From a virus, in the IMG/VR virus record IMGVR_UViG_3300035698_012571, positions 1 to 20,127 of that record: a DNA stretch of 20,127 nucleotides; one strand, 5' to 3'. The position numbers and the translations under genes are program-made. A model generated the notes under the pieces. It was not told the DNA's origin and searched no databases. It worked only from the letters and a program-made list of their open reading frames with translations. This document shows positions 2,974-18,872 of this stretch, one piece after another. The stretch's first letter is position 1. The number at the start of each line of letters is the position of its first letter.

Positions 2974-3615
2974 TTATTCTCCTATCCAACTCATTGAAAA
3001 TACAGTATATGGTGCATTAAGACTCCTTGCGGCTCCACAATTATGCAAAATATAAACATCCACATAATCATTTGTTGTAAGATCAAGAATATTGAAAGCT
3101 CTAGCTGTAATACTATTTGCTGTTCTGGTCGATACAAAGTTTCTACCAACACTGGGAAGGTTGGCCACTCCGTTAGTATATAATGCTAATTGTATATATT
3201 TATCGTCATTAAATGAAATACCCCTTGTATTGGAAAAGGATACATACCGTCCGTTTTTAGGCGGAGTATATCGGAAAAGAACAGGATCATATCCGCCCCC
3301 AATATCGCTAATTTCTGTTCCAGCGGTTAATTTAGTTGCTGTTGCAGAAGCAACAGCCTGATTTGTTGCCGCGACAGCTCGAAATGAAGGCGGCTTATTA
3401 AGCGTTACGCCTTCCAAGGTAATAATATTATCTATATTCGTTATACTGTAAGTAGCAACATTCCAGTTGGAAGTAGCCGGATTTGTGACTTTATCTTCAA
3501 CAGCTTCTGCTATCCATAGATCAATTAGTCTTTTCTGAGACGGAGTAAAGGGAGGTCCGGCATTAACCAGCCCGCACACCATAACCAGAATAATTGTTAA
3601 ACCCAGTCGTTTCAT
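2974..3615 (-). CDS. Exported C1q/TNF-like jelly-roll protein
   Basis: This 213-aa protein has a Sec signal peptide (MKRLGLTIILVMVCGLVNA|G). From about residue 77 to the end it follows the C1q-like jelly-roll pattern: PPSFRAVA and ATATKL, then EISDIGGGYD, then FRYTPPKNGRYVSFS (the 'aP..G.Y.F' strand), QLALYTNGV, a NILDLTTNDYVDVYI strand (usually 'L..GD.V.v') and the closing TVFSMSWIG. C1q-like heads trimerise and act as receptor-binding tips in many phages. The start codon overlaps the stop of the upstream 141-aa gene by four bases (ATGA), indicating translational coupling. The likely role is a fibre head or small receptor-binding protein. The fold assignment is fairly secure; the export signal on it is unexpected. 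Confidence 0.65.
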   Translation of the reverse strand: MKRLGLTIILVMVCGLVNAGPPFTPSQKRLIDLWIAEAVEDKVTNPATSNWNVATYSITNIDNIITLEGVTLNKPPSFRAVAATNQAVASATATKLTAGTEISDIGGGYDPVLFRYTPPKNGRYVSFSNTRGISFNDDKYIQLALYTNGVANLPSVGRNFVSTRTANSITARAFNILDLTTNDYVDVYILHNCGAARSLNAPYTVFSMSWIGE

Positions 3616-4037
3616 TTCTTCTTCCGTTTCTTATCTTTCTTTTTGTCCTTGTAGATATTGTAAACAAAATTGGTTGTCTTGTGATTGATCTTAGCTATCG
3701 TATCAAGTATCGCCTGCCCCTCGGTTGTCATTTGAAAAACATCGTCGCTCATGCTCTGCCAAGAAATCTCTGTTATCGCCCCAAGTTCGCTTATGTTCTT
3801 TGCTCCATCAACCCATACCGCAACTGTACCAGATCCTACAGCGTTTGTTTTTATTCCCGAGAGAGTTGTCCCGCCGCAGGAAGCCTTGCCGTCCTGATAA
3901 GAAATATAATCACCATGCGTGATAATATTCCCGTTACCCTTCTGCCAGATAAGAGACTCATCGGCATTTGCGATCAGAAACGCACACCCCAAAAGTGCCA
4001 CGATATATGCGATAATAAAAATAGGTCCTTTTTTCAT
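3612..4037 (-). CDS. Exported hypothetical protein with polybasic C-terminal tail
   Basis: This 141-aa protein is not recognised. Residues 1-25 are a signal peptide or anchor (MKKGPIFIIAYIVALLGCAF...ANA|D); the LLGC inside it is only a weak lipobox. The body has a beta-like part (SLIWQKGNGNIITHGDYISY) followed by 'ISWQSMSDDVFQMTTEGQ', a helical segment and a striking tail, KDKKKDKKRKKK, in which ten of the last twelve residues are Lys or Arg. The tail could contact nucleic acid or anionic surface polymers. AAGGAG lies five bases before the ATG; the gene starts nine bases after the spike gene and its stop overlaps the next start. The function is unknown; a small accessory to the spike or fibre is plausible from position alone. 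Confidence 0.55.
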   Translation of the reverse strand: MKKGPIFIIAYIVALLGCAFLIANADESLIWQKGNGNIITHGDYISYQDGKASCGGTTLSGIKTNAVGSGTVAVWVDGAKNISELGAITEISWQSMSDDVFQMTTEGQAILDTIAKINHKTTNFVYNIYKDKKKDKKRKKK

Positions 4038-4046
4038 ATTTTCTCC

Positions 4047-5036
4047 TTATGGGAATACCTGTCCACCAGTTGTCTCAAATTTGTCAGCCGCCGCACCAGT
4101 TGGATATGACGCTGGTGCTGTACTGGAATTTATACCAGCTATTCCTGCGTCCCTTGCCGCAACTCCGTAATGAGGTTGTGTAGAAAGATTCGTGCATGAA
4201 AGAATACCTAGATGACCTAGATTATCTGCCTCATACCCATACAATCCACCTATAACAATACACGTTTTTGTTTCCATTGCACCACCATGTAATGTTCTGA
4301 AACCTGTACCAAAATTTGTTCCTGTATTCCATCCAAAACAATATAAGAATCGTCCAAATGAGCTACACTTCTCCATATCGAAAACACCGCCATTTACACT
4401 AGAGAAAGTTCCTTTAGCGGCAATTCCTTTAACCTCAAAATCACAAGCATTGTCTTTGAATCTCATAACATCAACATCATTGGTCAATAAGGTTCCATCT
4501 ATGAATACAGTTTGATTTGTAGATTGAAATGTATTCGTCCATCCCAAAACCCTATATTTTCCGCCACCATAAAACCCATCGAACGTATAAGGCACTGTAG
4601 AATTTGTGTAGGTTCCTGCTCCAAACTGGAAGGTCAGAGTTTGGTCTATTGGAATATACTTACCAGCCGCATCAATAAGAGCTTGATTCTCAACGTCTGT
4701 ATTTGAATTGGTAAGGTTTATGGTCTCGCTTTTCTGAGGGGTCATATCTATTGTGTTGACTGTGAGTTTTGTAATACTCTGCGTCGGGCAGACTACGAGA
4801 AAAGGATATGCACCGGAAGTGTCAAGGATCAAACTTATACCGTCAAAAAGTTTGTTGGTCCCGCTCGTACAGTTGGTAGTGAAATATGATTTTGTAATCA
4901 AATCCTCTAACTGCGCTCCTGTTTTCAGTCCGGTCTCTCCGTCAAACTTATAACCTCGAACAAAGTTATCAGCCGCCAATACCGTAACGGCCGCAACCGA
5001 CAGGACAAATAAAATTACCGCAAGTTTCTCTTTCAT
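4047..5036 (-). CDS. Putative tail spike, beta-helix-like, with signal peptide
   Basis: This 329-aa protein starts with a Sec signal peptide (MKEKLAVILFVLSVAAVTVLA|A). The central region, about residues 125-270, has the signature of right-handed beta-helix spikes: FQFGAGTYTN, then a GFYGGGKYRVLGW turn, VFIDGTL, and short repeating strands such as VMRFKDNACDFEVKGI, GGVFDMEKCSSFGRFL and TKTCIVIGGLYG. Such proteins bind or cut surface polysaccharide; no catalytic residues can be assigned here. The start is supported by a purine-rich GAAGGAAGAAGG region formed by the end of the tail-hub gene, two bases away. It lies directly after the tail hub, the usual place for a podoviral spike. It could equally be a non-enzymatic fibre. 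The exported leader is again unusual for a virion protein. Confidence 0.55.
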   Translation of the reverse strand: MKEKLAVILFVLSVAAVTVLAADNFVRGYKFDGETGLKTGAQLEDLITKSYFTTNCTSGTNKLFDGISLILDTSGAYPFLVVCPTQSITKLTVNTIDMTPQKSETINLTNSNTDVENQALIDAAGKYIPIDQTLTFQFGAGTYTNSTVPYTFDGFYGGGKYRVLGWTNTFQSTNQTVFIDGTLLTNDVDVMRFKDNACDFEVKGIAAKGTFSSVNGGVFDMEKCSSFGRFLYCFGWNTGTNFGTGFRTLHGGAMETKTCIVIGGLYGYEADNLGHLGILSCTNLSTQPHYGVAARDAGIAGINSSTAPASYPTGAAADKFETTGGQVFP

Positions 5037-7778: not shown

Positions 7779-8402
7779 TTATCGGACAATTCGATACATT
7801 CCACCCAACACCATAGCACCGCCGGAAGCAGGAACAGCTATGTGAACAGGCATATTACGTTTTCCTGAGAAAACATACTTGTGGTCTGTCTGTGCAGTAC
7901 CCGAAAGGCAAGGGAACGTAACAATATCTGTAGTATCAACAAAATACACCAGATCGTCCGCCGAGCAGGTAATAGACGTATCAAGACTCCATTGAGTCCA
8001 GTTAGTAGTCGTATTGGCCTGAACCAACGCGCCCAATCCCGCCAACTGCCAGCCGCTCGTACCATTGTAAATCAGAATAGAGTCGGCTGCGGCAAGTGTT
8101 ACACCGTCCAGCGTATTACTCGAATCTGTATGAATGAGTATATTGGTTGTCCCCGCAACAGCCGAATCAGCCGAAGTTCTGAGCGACGGTTTATATATAC
8201 TCATATTCACGTTTGTCGAGCAGGTAACATACATCGTCTCGTCAACGACATAACCGTTTCCGTTCGGGATAGTGAAAGCCATTGCCTCACTTGTACCCGT
8301 ATCCTGAAACGTACCTACTGCATAATCATTCAGCCCTGCACATACAAGCCCCGCAAGTCCCAAGACTACGAATAGGCTTAATATTGTCTTCCTTACTTTC
8401 AT
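7779..8402 (-). CDS. Exported beta-rich protein next to the capsid gene
   Basis: This 207-aa protein is not assigned to a family. Residues 1-22 form a clear Sec signal peptide (MKVRKTILSLFVVLGLAGLV-CA|GLND). The mature part is rich in Thr, Ser, Asn and short hydrophobic strands (AMAFTIPNGNGYVVDETMYV, LVYFVDTTDIVTFPCL, VFSGKRNMPVHIAVP), with a GGMYRIVR end, suggesting a beta sandwich. The gene lies immediately after the major capsid gene, where podoviruses often encode head decoration or cement proteins, and is separated from it by a strong hairpin. GAGGT is spaced eight to nine bases before the ATG. Possible roles are capsid decoration or a secreted accessory. The combination of capsid-adjacent location and export signal is the notable point. 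Confidence 0.6.
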   Translation of the reverse strand: MKVRKTILSLFVVLGLAGLVCAGLNDYAVGTFQDTGTSEAMAFTIPNGNGYVVDETMYVTCSTNVNMSIYKPSLRTSADSAVAGTTNILIHTDSSNTLDGVTLAAADSILIYNGTSGWQLAGLGALVQANTTTNWTQWSLDTSITCSADDLVYFVDTTDIVTFPCLSGTAQTDHKYVFSGKRNMPVHIAVPASGGAMVLGGMYRIVR

Positions 8403-9665: not shown

Positions 9666-10763
9666 TTAAGCGGACATTTCTTTAAGTTCTCCTAGAACTG
9701 TGTCCGCGTTCCGCTCTTTTTTCGAGTTTGTAGAATGCGACGAAGAACTACTTTCGAGAGAATCAGAAAGATTTAACTTTTTCTCCAATTCTGCGATTTG
9801 AGCCTTAGCCGCGTTAAGTTCAGAATCACTACCAGCGGTTACAGTTGGATTGAAAGACTCACGAAACATTTTTGCTTGCGTGTAGGGGTGAGCAACAAAA
9901 GTCGCTAATTCAGCACCCTCAAGAATACCCGGCTCGACAATTTGTCCGTTTTCAACTTTACCAATGAGCTTGGTTGTCCATTCGGTAAAGGCTTGCGCCT
10001 CGGGCTTAGTAGGATCAAGCAAATCTGCGAAGTCCTTTTTAACCTCAACAACTTCCTTGCCATACGCATTTTGGAAGTCTTGAGCGGTCTTCTGGTCATT
10101 TGCATATTTTTCCTGCTCTGCCTTAGTTTCGGAATTTTCACGCGCAATAACTCTCGGCAGGTAATTATTCGCCTGCTCAAGTATATCAGCACTCACCTCT
10201 CCAAATCCGCCAACCTCGGCCTTTTCAATGACCTTGTTTATGTCGGCAGAAGATAGATCTTTTGTGATTGCATCTCTTGCGGCTGATTCCAAATGTCGAT
10301 CTTCGTCGAGTTGACCCTTTATCAGATACTCAAAACACGAATCCGGTGACGGTTGATCCGCCGCTGGAGGCTTGGCCGATTCCTCTGCGTCTTTCAACGC
10401 TTGGGCTTTCTCGGCTTCATACTTTACAATGGCTTCCTCTTTCTCTTTGAGGTCAATCCTCATTTTTGCCATAGCATCGTCGGTTTTCTTCTGATCCTCA
10501 GACTTCTCGGGTTCAGGGACTATTTCCTTTTCAGGCTCCTTCTCAGGTTCCTTCTCGTCCTCTGGCTTCTGATCCTTGTCGTCGGACTGCTGGTCGTCCT
10601 TTTTGTCTTCTTCTTTCACAGCTTCTTTTTCGACAGGGGTATCGTCGGCTTCCTCGTCGTCCTTGACGGGACGCCCCTCGTTTACTTCCTCACCCATTCC
10701 GGCAAGTTTTTCTTCGAGTTCGTCTGCGGTTAGGTCTTTCTTCTCTTCTTCTTTGTCTTTCAT
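9666..10763 (-). CDS. Capsid scaffold protein
   Basis: This 365-aa protein is very acidic and largely helical. Residues 1-95 are low-complexity Glu/Lys/Asp sequence with EKEPEKEP-type repeats. Residues 95-140 form a predicted coiled coil (MRIDLKEKEEAIVKYEAEKA), the middle is helical, and near the C-terminus comes a second coiled coil (AAKAQIAELEKKLNLS), a Ser-rich linker and a short positively charged end (KKERNADTVLGELKEM). This is the usual build of phage scaffolds, whose C-terminal helix contacts the capsid protein and whose bulk is expelled or degraded before packaging. It sits 17 bases upstream of the capsid gene, the canonical position. GGAAGG precedes the ATG. No Ser-His-Asp maturation protease signature is seen. 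Confidence 0.72.
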   Translation of the reverse strand: MKDKEEEKKDLTADELEEKLAGMGEEVNEGRPVKDDEEADDTPVEKEAVKEEDKKDDQQSDDKDQKPEDEKEPEKEPEKEIVPEPEKSEDQKKTDDAMAKMRIDLKEKEEAIVKYEAEKAQALKDAEESAKPPAADQPSPDSCFEYLIKGQLDEDRHLESAARDAITKDLSSADINKVIEKAEVGGFGEVSADILEQANNYLPRVIARENSETKAEQEKYANDQKTAQDFQNAYGKEVVEVKKDFADLLDPTKPEAQAFTEWTTKLIGKVENGQIVEPGILEGAELATFVAHPYTQAKMFRESFNPTVTAGSDSELNAAKAQIAELEKKLNLSDSLESSSSSHSTNSKKERNADTVLGELKEMSA

Positions 10764-13073: not shown

Positions 13074-13904
13074 TTACTCGTAAGTACCCATGTTCTTCCA
13101 GTCGAGAGTGACAGTACCAGACGGATGATTTGTATTTGCACCGCTGTCATTGGCCGCAGGTACAGCCCAGTTCCAATAAACTGCTATTGCGGTAGACGTA
13201 CCGTCATAAATAGTTCCAACGGTTGCTATCGCGCCCTGTGCACTAAGAACAAGATTCGTACCGCTGACAGTATCCATACTGATATTAGCGATCATATCTG
13301 CACCAGTAGCAGAAATAGTCCCGTCATTATCGGTATTGGTAACTGAGCCAACTGCAACATTATACAAATCAGATGAAGAAGCATTGAAGTTAGTTGAGGT
13401 CATAGTGCAAACCATGTCAGCGGTTCCACCTTCAAGAACTATATGCCCCTCTGGAAACGTGTAAAGCAACTGCGCATTTTCAAATGCTCCGTCAGCTATA
13501 ACTGAGGCAGTTCCTTTAAGCGTTAGAATCGACCTGTGACTTATGCCATTTCCATACTCTGCAACAGAGGTCACATTGGTCGTGTTGATCGTACCAACAT
13601 CAGACGAACAGAGCGGAGGTGATGCAACAGTCGTTGAACTTGTAATTTCTTTAACGGTGATAACCCCATTGGTGTCGATAGTTGCTCCGCCGCTCATGGC
13701 AAATTCTGACCATGTGCCATCAGCCTGAAAAATCATCATGTATCCGGCTGTACCCTGTTCGTGTTTATCAATGTAGGTCTGGATACGATTTGCTCCCCAA
13801 CAATCCTCTGAGCTATTCTGCCACGCACCAGGACCACCTGCTAAACCGATCATTACCGAAACCATGAGAGCGAACACTACTGATATACCCAACATTTTCC
13901 TCAT
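13074..13904 (-). CDS. Exported beta-rich protein between TerL and portal
   Basis: This 276-aa protein has a Sec signal peptide (MRKMLGISVVFALMVSVMIG-LA|GGPG). The mature part begins AWQNSSEDCWGANRIQTYID. It then becomes almost entirely short Thr/Ser/Asn-rich strands (TWSEFAMSGGATIDTNGVIT, ILTLKGTASVIADGAFENA) and ends with 'VYWNWAVPAAND' and GTVTLDWKNMG, suggesting a beta sandwich or fibre-like decoration. I do not recognise the family. It follows the terminator, so it is the first gene of the portal-capsid-tail transcription segment, and AAGG lies eight to ten bases before the ATG. Its place inside the packaging/head module suggests a virion-linked role, yet the leader predicts export. It may be a capsid decoration protein or a secreted effector expressed late. 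Confidence 0.58.
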   Translation of the reverse strand: MRKMLGISVVFALMVSVMIGLAGGPGAWQNSSEDCWGANRIQTYIDKHEQGTAGYMMIFQADGTWSEFAMSGGATIDTNGVITVKEITSSTTVASPPLCSSDVGTINTTNVTSVAEYGNGISHRSILTLKGTASVIADGAFENAQLLYTFPEGHIVLEGGTADMVCTMTSTNFNASSSDLYNVAVGSVTNTDNDGTISATGADMIANISMDTVSGTNLVLSAQGAIATVGTIYDGTSTAIAVYWNWAVPAANDSGANTNHPSGTVTLDWKNMGTYE

Positions 13905-14191: not shown

Positions 14192-15739
14192 TTAATCCCA
14201 TTCCTCACCGAAAACTGAGTCATCTTCGTTATTATCCATACCCTCTTTAACCTTCTTAAAATACTCTGCCGGTATCCCTGTTTTGACTGTCCCTCTGGCA
14301 ATATCCTCAATGGTAGGCATGGATTCCATACCGGCAACAAGGCCGACAATGGTTTCTAATCTGTCCGGGGATGCTTCTTTTCTTTTCTCCTTGGCCTGTC
14401 GCTTTGGTTCCAACCGAAACTTATTATCTTCTGTATTTTTCATCACATATCTGCGGAGGCGCATTTGTTTCAGCAATTTCTCATCTTTTGGGAGAATGAG
14501 CAGAGAATCATGCAGGGCCTGCTTGAACGCCCAGTAATCCTCGGTTGCCTTATCAGCGAATTGGGTCTTATCCATAGGATTCTGATTAGAGTTTACCCGG
14601 TTGATCGTATAGGACTTCTTCTTCATTTCCGTTATGATCCCGGCTCCCATACCGCCGTTATCGCCGTAAATCTGTTGAGAATTAAGCTCAAACTGCTTGA
14701 AAAGACGGATATAAGCATCTGCCTCGTCGGAAGGTGCAACGTGGCCGCTCCGGTTCCAACCGACAATAGGATGGATATAATTGCCATTCCGCACCCCAAA
14801 AGTCAATTCATCACCGCCACCTGAGAAATCACACCATGCCCGCTTACTCTTGCCGATATGTGGTCTATTCTGGCTCATAGCATCTTGCGCTGCGCGTATA
14901 TCTGCATCCGTAAAAACCTGATATGTGCCGGACCGGAAGAATCCAGCGTATAAATTTGATACGATAAACGGATGATCGCGCCCCAGTCGGTTAATCAATG
15001 CCATTTTACGCTTGTATGTTATTGGATCTTCGTACAAATGCGGGCATTGTTCCCAAGGAATAGCGAATTTATAGTATTTCCCCTGCCATTCGTAACCAGT
15101 TACCCAGTCTTCGGACATACAGGCATCGTGAAAGTTTCCAGAATCGTCGCCTGTTGTGGAGATATAAAGCTCAACAGCAGGATTACAGCGTTCGCCAGCA
15201 TCAAAAATAGTCTGTTTAATGGATTTTGCTTCATCGAAAATAGTCATTAGCGGGCAAAACCGCTCTACATCGTCCTTATCAGGGTAAAGTTTGGAGTGAT
15301 ACCCCTCAAACCGCTCACCTTCCTTGGTAACGCGGCAAATGATCTTAGACCCTGGCAATACCCCGTCCACGCTTGGAAGCTCTACAGTAGTGCCGTAGGT
15401 ACGCCATTTCTTCTTATTGGCAATGAGCTTTAAGACCGGCCAAAGTTGCTCTCCAAGCTGATCCTCAGAAGAACTCGTAATAACACACATACCGCCGGGA
15501 AAACCAACCGCCCATGCAGAAGCCAGTACAGGTACGAAATAACCACTTTTCCCGGCTTCATTGCACGTTCTAATTGCGACCTGTGCCCCGTAATTCCAAC
15601 AGGCAGACCATCCTGCATACTGCCAGTCGTAAGGCTGTATTGCCATAAACTCGCGCCAAGTAGCTACAGGACTGTTGTAATCCCGAAACAGAGCCGGTGG
15701 CAAGTCCTTCCGAGTAGCTATTTTGCCTTCATTTTCCAT
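14192..15739 (-). CDS. terL: Terminase large subunit (packaging ATPase-nuclease)
   Basis: This 515-aa protein has all the landmarks of TerL, the motor that pumps DNA through the portal and cuts the concatemer. The ATPase half shows an atypical Walker A, RTCNEAGKS at 57-65, Walker B LMTIFDE at 164-170 with Asp169/Glu170, and the coupling motif YISTTGD at 192-198. The nuclease half has WCDFSGGGDE at 302-311 (Asp304, Asp310), IYGDNGGMGAG at 358-366 (Asp360) and SPDRLE at 457-462 (Asp459), the acidic cluster of the RNase H-like fold. The start directly abuts the stop of the upstream gene, with AAAGGA ahead. The length is normal and the gene looks intact. Confidence 0.9.
   Translation of the reverse strand: MENEGKIATRKDLPPALFRDYNSPVATWREFMAIQPYDWQYAGWSACWNYGAQVAIRTCNEAGKSGYFVPVLASAWAVGFPGGMCVITSSSEDQLGEQLWPVLKLIANKKKWRTYGTTVELPSVDGVLPGSKIICRVTKEGERFEGYHSKLYPDKDDVERFCPLMTIFDEAKSIKQTIFDAGERCNPAVELYISTTGDDSGNFHDACMSEDWVTGYEWQGKYYKFAIPWEQCPHLYEDPITYKRKMALINRLGRDHPFIVSNLYAGFFRSGTYQVFTDADIRAAQDAMSQNRPHIGKSKRAWCDFSGGGDELTFGVRNGNYIHPIVGWNRSGHVAPSDEADAYIRLFKQFELNSQQIYGDNGGMGAGIITEMKKKSYTINRVNSNQNPMDKTQFADKATEDYWAFKQALHDSLLILPKDEKLLKQMRLRRYVMKNTEDNKFRLEPKRQAKEKRKEASPDRLETIVGLVAGMESMPTIEDIARGTVKTGIPAEYFKKVKEGMDNNEDDSVFGEEWD
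15722..15739 (-). repeat. 18-bp direct repeat, copy at terL start
   Basis: These six codons (MENEGK) are identical to the first six codons of the portal gene at 13040-13057. The flanking ribosome sites and following codons differ. Confidence 0.9.
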
Positions 15740-16613: not shown

Positions 16614-16889
16614 CTATTCATCCTCCTGTATTGAATTTATGTCGTCTTCAACCGTCAAAACACACGGCTTTCCATCGACAACTACTCTGTGACCGCTGTA
16701 TCTCGTAAGAAAAATAGTATCACCCACTTTGATATCTCGTACCTTCGGTCCAACTGCAAAACACTTAACCCAGTGACCGTCTACAGCATCTTCACACGCT
16801 CCCTCGGGAATAATTATACTCCCAACCTTACGCTCCAATAACTGCGGGTCTTCTACCAACACTCGATGGTTAAGGGGTTTCAACATCAT
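16614..16889 (-). CDS. GroES-type co-chaperonin (Cpn10)
   Basis: This 91-aa protein aligns with bacterial GroES along its length: KPLNHRVLVE at 4-13, mobile-loop triplet III at 25-27 (the same position as IVL in E. coli GroES), FAVGPKV at 44-50, IKVGDTIFLTRYSG at 53-66, a VVVDGK strand and the final EDDINSI. GroES heptamers cap GroEL and enclose substrate. The roof loop between AVG and KVGD is about eight residues shorter than in E. coli, as in the roofless T4 Gp31 (from memory). The ATG at 16889 has GGAG eight bases upstream; a GTG two codons earlier is too close to it. It is probably used to fold phage virion proteins, such as the capsid, with the host GroEL. No GroEL is seen here. Confidence 0.87.
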   Translation of the reverse strand: MMLKPLNHRVLVEDPQLLERKVGSIIIPEGACEDAVDGHWVKCFAVGPKVRDIKVGDTIFLTRYSGHRVVVDGKPCVLTVEDDINSIQEDE

Positions 16890-16900
16890 CCTCACGTCTC

Positions 16901-17161
16901 CTATTTTATGTTCAGCTTCTCAATATCTTCCGCCTGTTGCTCTAATGCATCCTGAATGTCTATACCTCTGTCGGCCGTCATAAACCGAGGATCAAACCGA
17001 GGATCAATAGACGACTTAGATATTCCCAAATGCCCTATCTCAGTCCGCAACTTCCTGATCTCATCACGCAACTCGCAAAAACAGCTATGCACCAGTGTAA
17101 TCGTCATAAAAAACATAACGCAATTACCCAAAAAACAACACATAACTACAGTATTACTCAT
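16901..17161 (-). CDS. Small membrane protein with coiled coil
   Basis: This 86-aa protein has a single N-terminal membrane segment (VVMCCFLGNCVMFFMTITLV, about residues 5-26, Cys-rich). It is followed by a short coiled coil (ELRDEIRKLRTEIGHL), a duplicated DPRFDPRF tetrapeptide and a second helix (IQDALEQQAEDIEKLNIK). The topology resembles small phage lysis proteins such as i-spanins or holin-like regulators, but no diagnostic motif is present. AAGGAAGG precedes the ATG by about eight bases, and its start overlaps the stop of the 30-aa mini-ORF (ATGA). A lysis or membrane-tether role is a guess. Confidence 0.6.
   Translation of the reverse strand: MSNTVVMCCFLGNCVMFFMTITLVHSCFCELRDEIRKLRTEIGHLGISKSSIDPRFDPRFMTADRGIDIQDALEQQAEDIEKLNIK
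16983..17006. repeat. Perfect 12-bp tandem duplication (DPRF x2)
   Basis: AACCGAGGATCA occurs twice in a row, encoding DPRFDPRF in the 86-aa membrane protein. It is an in-frame recent duplication. Confidence 0.95.
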
Positions 17162-17250
17162 GTCTCTTTACCTTCCTTTTCCAGTAGTTTCCGAGTCAAA
17201 TATTCCTGCACCAGATTCCAACCAACCTTACTACTCAATATCTTATTCAT
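17158..17250 (-). CDS. 30-aa mini-ORF resembling the capsid N-arm
   Basis: This 30-residue ORF begins MNKILSSKVGWNLVQEYLTR and ends KLLEKEGKET. Almost its entire length matches the major capsid protein from Ser7 to Arg29 without gaps (I, L, G, L, V, E, Y, L, L, L, E identical, 11 of 23), and it also matches the C-terminus of the 80-aa protein at 18318-18560. Its ATG overlaps the TerS stop (TAATG) and its TGA overlaps the start of the 86-aa gene (ATGA), so it fills the only gap between two genes as a coupled cistron. There is no clear ribosome site of its own. Its 3' end also carries the Shine-Dalgarno of the next gene, which constrains the EKEGK residues. Whether it is translated is unproven. 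Confidence 0.55.
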   Translation of the reverse strand: MNKILSSKVGWNLVQEYLTRKLLEKEGKET

Positions 17251-18233
17251 TAACGATTCCAATTCCGATATATCTCGTTCAACTCAGCCAAATGTCCGAC
17301 ACCAGGGAGATTAGATACGGGAGGATAGGGTGATATATAGTCGTGAGATTGCGCGGGGGGGGGTGCGGGTTCCGATGTGCATGTTTCCCCGCGTCCTGGT
17401 GCGGTTGTGTCCTGTGGATCATCGTCAGGGTCTAGAGATGGTACTATGTCATGGATGACGGGTAGCGATGGTGTGCCCTCCGCGCTATCCACCTGCGCCG
17501 TTGCACCTGTATTGCATACGGTATGCATCGCATCATGCCCTAAATCACCCTGTTTACTGGTATTTAACTCGCTGTGCGTGGCTTCTTTGTGCTTTGCCCT
17601 GTGCGTTACTGCGTCGGATTCACTCTCAAGCGTTACAGATTTGAGTTTCAGGACCTTGCACACCGCCGGCGCCAGCTCTGCCAGTTCTGCGCGGAGAGGA
17701 TCGCGCCCGGATAACTCGCACTGTATCAAGTGTGCAATGACTGACTCTATCGGAACCTGGACACGATCAGCTGCCATTGACTCTTTGTCACCGTAGTATT
17801 CGGATAGCTTGTCAAGCGCCTTGATCGCTGCCTCTGATTTGACTCCCTCAACATAAAATCGGGCAACAACATCTTTATATACCGTCATTCTGCCGTCTCT
17901 GGTGGATATATCTGGCATTACCGGCTTACCTGATTCCTGCGCGGCTTTCTCATTTTCCTTGATTGCAGTTAAATATTCATATCTCGCCATCCAGTCGGGG
18001 TTGCTGTGGAGTTTGGACACCCTACTACTTGCAGTACCATTGGTTATCCTGTCGGGAGTGGCTTTCAAGATTGCAAGCTGTAACTTCATTCCGTCAGAGT
18101 GGTATTGTGCGGCCTTTTCGTCCCTTACGTTATGATATGGGTCTTGCGGGTTGTACTGATTGATATCTTTATCAGGGTGATGCTTAGTTGGTACATTAAT
18201 ACTTAACTGTTTAGTTATACTATTTATACTCAT
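17250..18233 (-). CDS. Putative terminase small subunit
   Basis: This protein is about 327 aa from the ATG at 18233; a GTG at 18242 would add three residues. The middle matches the small-terminase pattern: a helical region ending in ITNGTASSRVSKLHSNPDWM, where 'R.S.L..NP..' is typical, then ARYEYLTAIKE, a helical spacer, and SEAAIKALDKLSEYYG, equivalent to the 'ALk.L...G' helix. TerS rings bind the packaging site and hand DNA to TerL. The remaining 150 residues form a long Asp/Pro/Ser-rich tail, unusual for the family, crossed by a G9 tract. TerL lies about 1.5 kb further down the same transcript, separated by small genes, which is wider than usual. A different DNA-binding protein cannot be excluded. 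Confidence 0.5.
   Translation of the reverse strand: MSINSITKQLSINVPTKHHPDKDINQYNPQDPYHNVRDEKAAQYHSDGMKLQLAILKATPDRITNGTASSRVSKLHSNPDWMARYEYLTAIKENEKAAQESGKPVMPDISTRDGRMTVYKDVVARFYVEGVKSEAAIKALDKLSEYYGDKESMAADRVQVPIESVIAHLIQCELSGRDPLRAELAELAPAVCKVLKLKSVTLESESDAVTHRAKHKEATHSELNTSKQGDLGHDAMHTVCNTGATAQVDSAEGTPSLPVIHDIVPSLDPDDDPQDTTAPGRGETCTSEPAPPPAQSHDYISPYPPVSNLPGVGHLAELNEIYRNWNR
17355..17363. repeat. G9 homopolymer inside the TerS-like gene
   Basis: Nine consecutive G (C on the coding strand) encode the APPPAQ part of the C-terminal tail. A one-base change would replace roughly the last 35 residues. Confidence 0.9.
17513..17527. repeat. 15-bp palindrome within the TerS-like gene
   Basis: TGCATAC-G-GTATGCA has perfect 7-base arms around one central base. 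Packaging-recognition sites often lie within small-terminase genes, so it is a candidate protein-binding site. There is no direct evidence. Confidence 0.6.
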
Positions 18234-18317
18234 TACTCCCACTCTCTGCTCATGGTATTAGCTGATCTATGGTTTTTGGTGAATGTGGTGTATTCTGTTG
18301 GTTTAATGATGGACGAT

Positions 18318-18560
18318 TTAGCAAATGGTGTCATTATTTGTCCATTGCTTGCGTTGAAGGAGGTGTTTTGTTAGGTATTGCCCTACAATTTGACCGCCTT
18401 GGTTATCTTCTAAAATGCTTTTGAGTGTTCTGGCATGAGAGAGTCCGGGGGTTGTTGGTGTGGTCAATGCAATGGGAACATTGACAGCGGACATTGAAGC
18501 GGCGGCGGTTGGTAGTAACGAGATACCGGGAAGTAGGCAGAGGAAAGAACGGCGTTTCAT
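18318..18560 (-). CDS. Tat-like signal peptide fused to a capsid-arm motif
   Basis: This 80-aa protein has two parts. Residues 1-22 (MKRRSFLCLLPGISLLPTAA-AS) look like a twin-arginine export signal: RRSFL, a moderate hydrophobic core and an Ala-rich cleavage region. After a Pro/Thr linker (NVPIALTTPTTPGLSHA), residues 46-73 align without gaps to major capsid residues 5-32: LKSILEDNQGGQIVGQYLTK, then HLLQRKQW. Thirteen of 28 positions are identical and many others conservative. Twelve of the thirteen shared residues use a different codon in the two genes; only Trp matches, so the resemblance is kept at protein level. AAGGAG lies about ten bases before the ATG, which follows the previous stop directly. 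Possible roles include a capsid-docking factor, a decoy or membrane tether. The function is unknown. Confidence 0.6.
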   Translation of the reverse strand: MKRRSFLCLLPGISLLPTAAASMSAVNVPIALTTPTTPGLSHARTLKSILEDNQGGQIVGQYLTKHLLQRKQWTNNDTIC

Positions 18561-18872
18561 TCAGTGTACTCTCCTTGCTGATTTGACGATTGGCGGCTCT
18601 GTGGCTGGATCGTATTTTCGGAATCCCTGGTTTGGATCGTATCTTAAAAGGTATAATTTGTTGTGTGCAATGGCAACTCGTATCTGATCAAGACAACGTG
18701 CGGCCTTGGATCGTATCCTGTGGAGTTTGGATGGACGTGGGAGACAAATAGCTAGTGAGTTTGGGTCTTTATCATCCCTGATGATCCAGATGCGGAGACA
18801 CTCAGCCCGCCAGAAATTACGAGCGCAGGCTGTGTTGAACTTGATTAGTTCGGGTTTTTTGTATCGCCTCAT
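18561..18872 (-). CDS. First gene of the leftward operon, hypothetical basic protein
   Basis: This 103-aa, strongly basic protein is not recognised. It is rich in Arg and Lys (MRRYKKPELIKF..) with aromatic-rich short segments (ARNFWRAECLRIWIIRDD, VAIAHNKLYLLRYDPNQGFR), which would suit a small nucleic-acid-binding or regulatory protein. An excellent AGGAGGG lies eight bases before the ATG, and a sigma70-like promoter is just upstream, so it is the promoter-proximal gene. Its TGA abuts the start of the 80-aa signal-peptide gene. Confidence 0.6.
   Translation of the reverse strand: MRRYKKPELIKFNTACARNFWRAECLRIWIIRDDKDPNSLAICLPRPSKLHRIRSKAARCLDQIRVAIAHNKLYLLRYDPNQGFRKYDPATEPPIVKSARRVH

Follow-up and report, generated by a model that had tools for sequence, protein, structure and literature searches.

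Phages very probably encode a class of Tat-addressed microproteins that mimic segments of their own virion proteins, mostly of the major capsid protein (MCP). No described phage protein family was found to join an export signal to pieces of the phage's own shell, and the class is so far undescribed. Its members, as defined here, are proteins of about 60-135 aa that combine an RRxF leader with a mature part similar to a virion protein of the same genome (mostly the MCP) above the whole-contig background; they include P0001, an 80-aa protein that matches its own MCP and shows constraint at the protein level. P0001 is encoded in the window, by which we mean the whole stretch of DNA analysed, a linear IMG/VR virus record of 20,127 bases from a tailed phage whose late genes lie on the minus strand (Table 1). 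For this combination of a Tat-type leader with a mimic of an own MCP segment we favour, tentatively and with somewhat more doubt than confidence, the explanation that such proteins may act as baits.

Table 1. Features of the window discussed in the text.
Feature	Position	Strand	Basis
P0001, 80-aa microprotein with Tat leader and capsid arm	18318..18560	-	ORF, ribosome site, match to MCP
P0001 leader, residues 1-22, MKRRSFLCLLPGISLLPTAAAS	18495..18560	-	sequence reading
P0001 linker, residues 23-42, Pro/Thr rich	18435..18494	-	sequence reading
P0001 capsid-arm segment, residues 43-73	18342..18434	-	BLASTP, Smith-Waterman, arm HMM
103-aa gene directly upstream of P0001	18561..18872	-	no assigned function
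Putative small terminase	17250..18242	-	position and gene order only
P0004, leaderless 30-aa capsid-arm peptide, MNKILSSKVGWNLVQEYLTRKLLEKEGKET	17158..17250	-	arm HMM from relatives
Small membrane protein downstream of P0004, hydrophobic N-terminus	16901..17161	-	sequence reading
Large terminase	14192..15739	-	tblastn to Akkermansia phage terminases, E 2e-28
MCP, 386 aa	8488..9648	-	G004 ortholog in PHROGs; conservation; gene order
MCP N-arm, residues 2-32, the copied segment	9553..9645	-	match to P0001; MCPs of relatives

Architecture and genomic setting of P0001

P0001 (MKRRSFLCLLPGISLLPTAAASMSAVNVPIALTTPTTPGLSHARTLKSILEDNQGGQIVGQYLTKHLLQRKQWTNNDTIC) is preceded by a ribosome site, AAGGAG, at 18571-18576, 10 nt upstream of its start, and its ATG directly abuts the stop codon of the upstream gene (TGA ATG). 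The ORF, with its twin-arginine leader motif and its Pro/Thr linker, is present as an earlier, sequence-only reading of this DNA had described it. The leader combines the twin arginine with a hydrophobic core and an Ala-rich possible cleavage site, its KRRSFLC being a partial fit to the Tat consensus (S/T)RRxFLK. This much of the proposed Tat-like character stands, but the curated Tat model TIGR01409 gave no match to P0001 at E<=1, so that the label Tat is given here for the RRxFL motif together with the hydrophobic core. The capsid arm claimed by the same reading was likewise recovered, but not at the very end of the protein, since the arm segment, which from residue 43 reads ARTLKSILEDNQGGQIVGQYLTKHLLQRKQW, is followed by TNNDTIC and stops seven residues short of the C-terminus. 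A full HK97-fold domain is absent from P0001, only 31 of its 80 residues showing the likeness.

The terminases of Akkermansia phages are distant kin of the large terminase of the window, so that the phage may have its host in Verrucomicrobia and allies. The putative small terminase had no match in PHROGs or Pfam. A counterpart of the 103-aa gene upstream of P0001 precedes the gene at the small-terminase position in G004 (score 100) and, weakly, in G003 (60). Near the small-terminase-position gene and the arm peptide P0004, a GroES-like co-chaperonin reminiscent of the T4 gp31 capsid co-chaperonin is encoded at 16614-16895 on the minus strand (Pfam Cpn10, 7.8e-11), and also at 13469-13738 of contig L014.

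Many virion-region genes of the window, all on the minus strand, open with Sec-like signal peptides (181-1863, 1882-2415, 2974-3615, 3612-4037, 4047-5036, 7779-8402 and 13074-13904). Such leaders were found on 15 of 77 genes in this phage group as against 38 of 852 in other phage contigs, and the gene immediately after the MCP carries one in 4/4 relatives. The gene at 4047-5036 encodes a collar-like protein whose leader, MKEKLAVILFVLSVAAVTVLA, was gained exactly before the N-terminus at which the relatives begin (M-ADN...FDGxSGLKTGAxLEDL); other sites of the collar-like protein are L014 2151-2891, L028 1726-2523 and L019 14403-14595, the leader being present in L019 too and absent in G002 and G004.

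Likeness of P0001 to the N-arm of the capsid protein

The MCP of the window is conserved in the relatives G002, G003 and G004; the G004 ortholog, 58% identical to it, matches PHROG 1357 'major head protein' (E 0.003), and the gene order TerL-portal-scaffold-MCP, in which 9666-10763 is the putative scaffold gene, supports the identification. A search of PDB sequences with the MCP profile found no match, and the AlphaFold model of the window MCP, computed from a four-sequence alignment, had a pLDDT of 29.

Residues 43-73 of P0001 align with residues 2-32 of this MCP with 14 identities in 31 positions (BLASTP, E 3e-7 for the pair; whole-contig E 9e-5). The Smith-Waterman score of 71 compares with 27 +/- 4 for shuffled sequences, none of 2,000 shuffles reaching it, and P0001 with the MCP is the top pair of the 5,940 formed by non-overlapping window ORFs of at least 50 aa, the next one scoring 61. 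The likeness is also found through an arm HMM built from the MCPs of three relatives only, the window's own MCP being excluded, which picks P0001 among the 202 window ORFs with E 8e-5. Of all 16-mers in the MCP family, the core of the copied arm (MCP residues 16-31) is conserved best, with 14 of 16 positions invariant.

Codon-position identity between P0001 and the MCP amounts to 18, 22 and 5 of 31 at positions 1, 2 and 3, the last figure being that expected by chance. The arm of P0001 is consequently no fresh copy, and the likeness has been kept at the protein level; judging by these codon positions, it is selection, not recent copying, that maintains it. An origin of P0001 in a recent duplication of the MCP gene was ruled out, with nucleotide identity at 45 of 93 positions and third positions at 5/31.

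A leaderless arm copy and the search for P0001 in relatives

The arm is encoded three times in this phage: at the N-terminus of the MCP, behind the Tat-like leader of P0001, and as the free 30-aa peptide P0004, which the earlier reading did not contain. P0004 is recognised by the arm HMM with E 1e-5, better than P0001 among the same 202 ORFs, and scores 59 as against 24 +/- 4 for shuffles. It shares bases with the genes on both sides, its start codon with the stop of the small-terminase-position gene (TAATG) and its stop codon with the start of the following gene (ATGA), and it is present also in the near-identical contig L001. No extra arm copies were found in G002, G003 or G004, the G002 contig ending before the place of P0001, nor did other contigs show leaderless tiny MCP fragments, which were seen in the window only. 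Since P0004 has no leader, relocation cannot be all that the arm serves for in this phage.

The sequence-only reading had named absence of the ORF from all relatives as an argument against its idea. P0001 is indeed missing in G003 and G004, where the contigs extend across the place; the contigs of G001 and G002 end before it, so that this objection holds in part. P0001 as a conserved gene of the lineage is therefore unsupported. No homologs were found in viral contigs and annotated phages, none was confirmed in bacterial and archaeal genome contigs, and a tblastn search with the leader only gave no match in annotated phages. Nonetheless, other small Tat-leader ORFs lie beside the same gene, two in G004 and one in G002. 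L028 13572-13853, which is one of these, shows likeness to another segment of its own MCP (z 5.1), and from this came the idea that small Tat-leader phage proteins may carry pieces of their own capsids.

Small Tat-leader ORFs in other phage contigs

Contigs were gathered by the leader DNA pattern alone (MNRR[ST]F[FL]K and MDRR[ST]F[FL]G), and the sequence after residue 24 of each small Tat ORF was compared with all ORFs of 120 aa or more from its contig; the RRxF(L/F/M) motif is common to all 38 strict ORFs by virtue of this selection. The held-out set comprised 32 strict Tat ORFs from 26 contigs, two pairs being identical ORFs in different contigs. Ten of the 32 matched a protein of their own contig at whole-contig E<0.01, where about 0.3 would be expected, and their targets were the MCP or an MCP-like protein in eight cases, the N-terminus of the large terminase in one (G020) and a tail-like protein in one (G022); the other 22 had no significant own-protein match. 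A match of this strength to an ORF of at least 250 aa was found for 9 of the 684 remaining small genes (Fisher p 5e-10). Ten genomes have an assigned MCP, and there a match to it at E<1e-3 is shown by 11 of 15 Tat ORFs and by 0 of 320 other small genes. The former figure is too high, since in some of these genomes it was the match that led to the assignment of the MCP; the 32-ORF test is free of this bias. A matrix of Tat-by-MCP scores is diagonal, the matching Tat ORFs fitting their own MCP and not those of unrelated phages.

The targets in G034, G016, G035, G032, G012 and G004 are 'major head protein' in PHROGs, that of G035 being GP7 in Pfam, and the identity of the MCP in G023, G024 and G028 is taken from size and from the match itself. 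TIGR01409 TAT_signal_seq of NCBIfam is matched by 15 of 24 small proteins and its capsid model NF033394 by one; major head families of PHROGs are matched by 3 of 24 small Tat proteins. Several Tat-leader ORFs were also recorded individually. The mature part of the one at L086 10943-11194 (+), which has an identical ORF in L044, resembles not a capsid protein but its own large terminase, in the N-terminus and the Walker-A region (E 5e-3). The ORF at L096 19369-19656 (+) contains a segment, NYASAPDSAMLTITGD, typical of LamG-like tail proteins and matches an ORF of the same contig (E 1.8e-4). That at L090 33-329 (-) matches the T4-type major head family phrog_138 at model positions 360-397 (E 3e-6), in a contig without an MCP of this type. 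An ORF beginning MNRRSFFKSVAGFVG in L102-L103 (G027) and L124 (G030) resembles by eye capsid decoration (DUF2190-like) proteins (VASSATLIAGEPIAAGTFVF), and no own-contig target reached significance for it.

The segment copied differs from phage to phage: the N-arm in the window, G016 and G028; a middle segment of the MCP in G034 (twice), G035 and G004; and the C-terminal part or end in G023, G024, G028, G032 and G012. From such differing segments no single shared binding site follows. In G016 two MCP segments occur in permuted order, the second scoring 49 as against 24.7 +/- 3.9, while in G034 and in G028 a pair of Tat ORFs draws on two different regions of a single MCP, the G028 paralogs having the same leader in front of the N-arm in one and the C-terminal part in the other. 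The idea that copying always picks the best-conserved patch of the MCP was considered and rejected, as it holds for the window and not for G035, where 55% of windows are at least as conserved. The codon pattern of P0001 recurs over 12 mimic-MCP pairs, with identity at 224, 268 and 137 of 420 codons for positions 1, 2 and 3; third positions are near chance throughout, and amino-acid identity is 182/420. Against its own MCP the G035 mimic reaches a score of 79, whereas nine related MCPs give 23-62. Leaders are orthologous within the group of G023, G024 and G028, and between G024 and G028 the MCPs are 97% identical and the Tat proteins 55%, with the MCP-like patch NPEWxNAPYE kept.

Discussion

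The part of the sequence-only interpretation that stands is the joining of a leader to a capsid-arm mimic, which goes beyond chance and is constrained at the protein level. A chance resemblance of two amphipathic helices might be argued from the shortness of the match, 31 residues, and from the lack of a P0001 ortholog in G003 or G004; it is nevertheless hardly credible, as the pair heads all those of the window and is reached by no shuffle, an HMM made from relatives only finds P0001, the operon contains a second arm peptide and the architecture recurs in phages with unrelated MCPs. Chance is refuted as far as shuffles and held-out recurrence can refute it. Another view is that recombination attached fragments of virion genes to a mobile leader cassette and that the products serve no capsid-related function. 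Targets other than the MCP, namely the large terminase in G020 and the tail-like ORF in G022, are what this view would lead one to expect, as are the G028 paralogs with their common leader and different mature parts; we regard it all the same as distinctly improbable, because drift would have erased a likeness that is kept in the proteins while third codon positions stand at chance, and because pieces of the MCP occur in none of the 320 other small genes.

Two further explanations grant the mimics a capsid-tied function. One is a membrane tether, an idea that goes back to the earlier reading: an uncleaved Tat or Sec leader would anchor the protein, and the arm would aid assembly by docking procapsids or capsid subunits at the membrane, where the leader-bearing virion proteins of the phage would join. 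The abundance of Sec-like leaders on virion-region genes of this group, the leader on the gene after the MCP in every relative and the presence of the most conserved 16-mer of the MCP in the copied arm are all consistent with it. However, where this architecture occurs in other phages, the copied segments come from the middle or the C-terminal part and Sec leaders are not in excess, the arm of P0004 has no leader at all and G003 and G004 have no arm copy, so we hold a tether to be rather unlikely. The other is interference, a capsid fragment acting as a dominant-negative inhibitor of assembly in superinfecting relatives with an MCP of the same type. In agreement with this, the best fit of the mimics is to the MCP of their lineage, and various inter-subunit segments could all poison assembly; there are also reports of small proteins blocking virion assembly (PMC10884400). 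Yet a fragment of the own capsid would poison the own phage too, the export leader would be unnecessary, and the genes stand at the start of the late operon instead of a lysogeny region, which makes interference of this kind improbable.

That the copied segments are diverse and that some genomes encode several mimics agrees better with baits for different binders than with a single tether. As a bait, the mimic segment would bind a partner that normally recognises the same capsid patch, and the leader would bring bait and partner to the membrane or export both by way of the Tat translocase, thereby lowering the free partner during capsid assembly. The likeliest partner would be a factor of the host or of a satellite by which the capsid is sensed or attacked, the alternative being an assembly factor of the phage itself. 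Bait and relocation of a capsid partner appear possible from the sequences, although we hold them with reserve; that the partner is a defence or satellite factor is, taken by itself, unlikely. It is tempting to speculate, at a level we consider more doubtful again, that phages with several unrelated capsid types independently make export-tagged mimics of their own capsid, and sometimes of terminase or tail, as a general counter-measure by which hitchhiker export of a Tat-addressed bait rids the infected cell of capsid-binding defence or satellite proteins.

The Tat system would be suited to such a relocation because it moves folded complexes and carries leaderless partners along (PMC4273604). 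In this hitchhiker export, as with PaoABC and HybOC of E. coli, a leader-bearing subunit carries the leaderless partners, as the bait explanation would need, but those complexes are host enzymes (PMC4273604). On the side of the host, CapRel, an immunity protein, senses an MCP directly by way of a folded capsid domain (PMC9712102). Whereas CapRel binds a folded MCP domain, the mimic in P0001 is a short arm. Satellites, for their part, hijack capsids, and with hosts able to sense an MCP directly a capsid bait could pay off.

The small phage proteins share with the Tat proteins of TIGR01409 an RRxFLK-type motif, a hydrophobic core and an Ala-rich end. Known Tat substrates are mostly cofactor-binding or folded enzymes, whereas the mature part of the phage proteins has 30-100 aa and resembles a capsid segment. 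With HK97-fold MCPs (PHROGs major head, Pfam GP7, NCBIfam NF033394) they have in common that their mature parts match one short segment of the own MCP; unlike these, they lack the full capsid domain, have an export leader in front and show third codon positions at chance. No Tat-leader capsid mimics turned up in ten phages, cultured or complete, whose MCPs or terminases are related. A literature search for links of phage Tat signals with capsid pieces, capsid decoys or capsid-derived interference, with subscription journals and preprints mostly outside its scope, returned nothing relevant.

Should the class prove real, the fusion of an export signal to parts of the phage's own shell would be a recurrent event, pointing to a conflict centred on the capsid in uncultured phages, be it over sensing, hijack or control of assembly. 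Each mimic would then mark a capsid patch that is recognised by something in the cell, and capsid-sensing defence or assembly partners would become directly searchable with a 30-residue bait.
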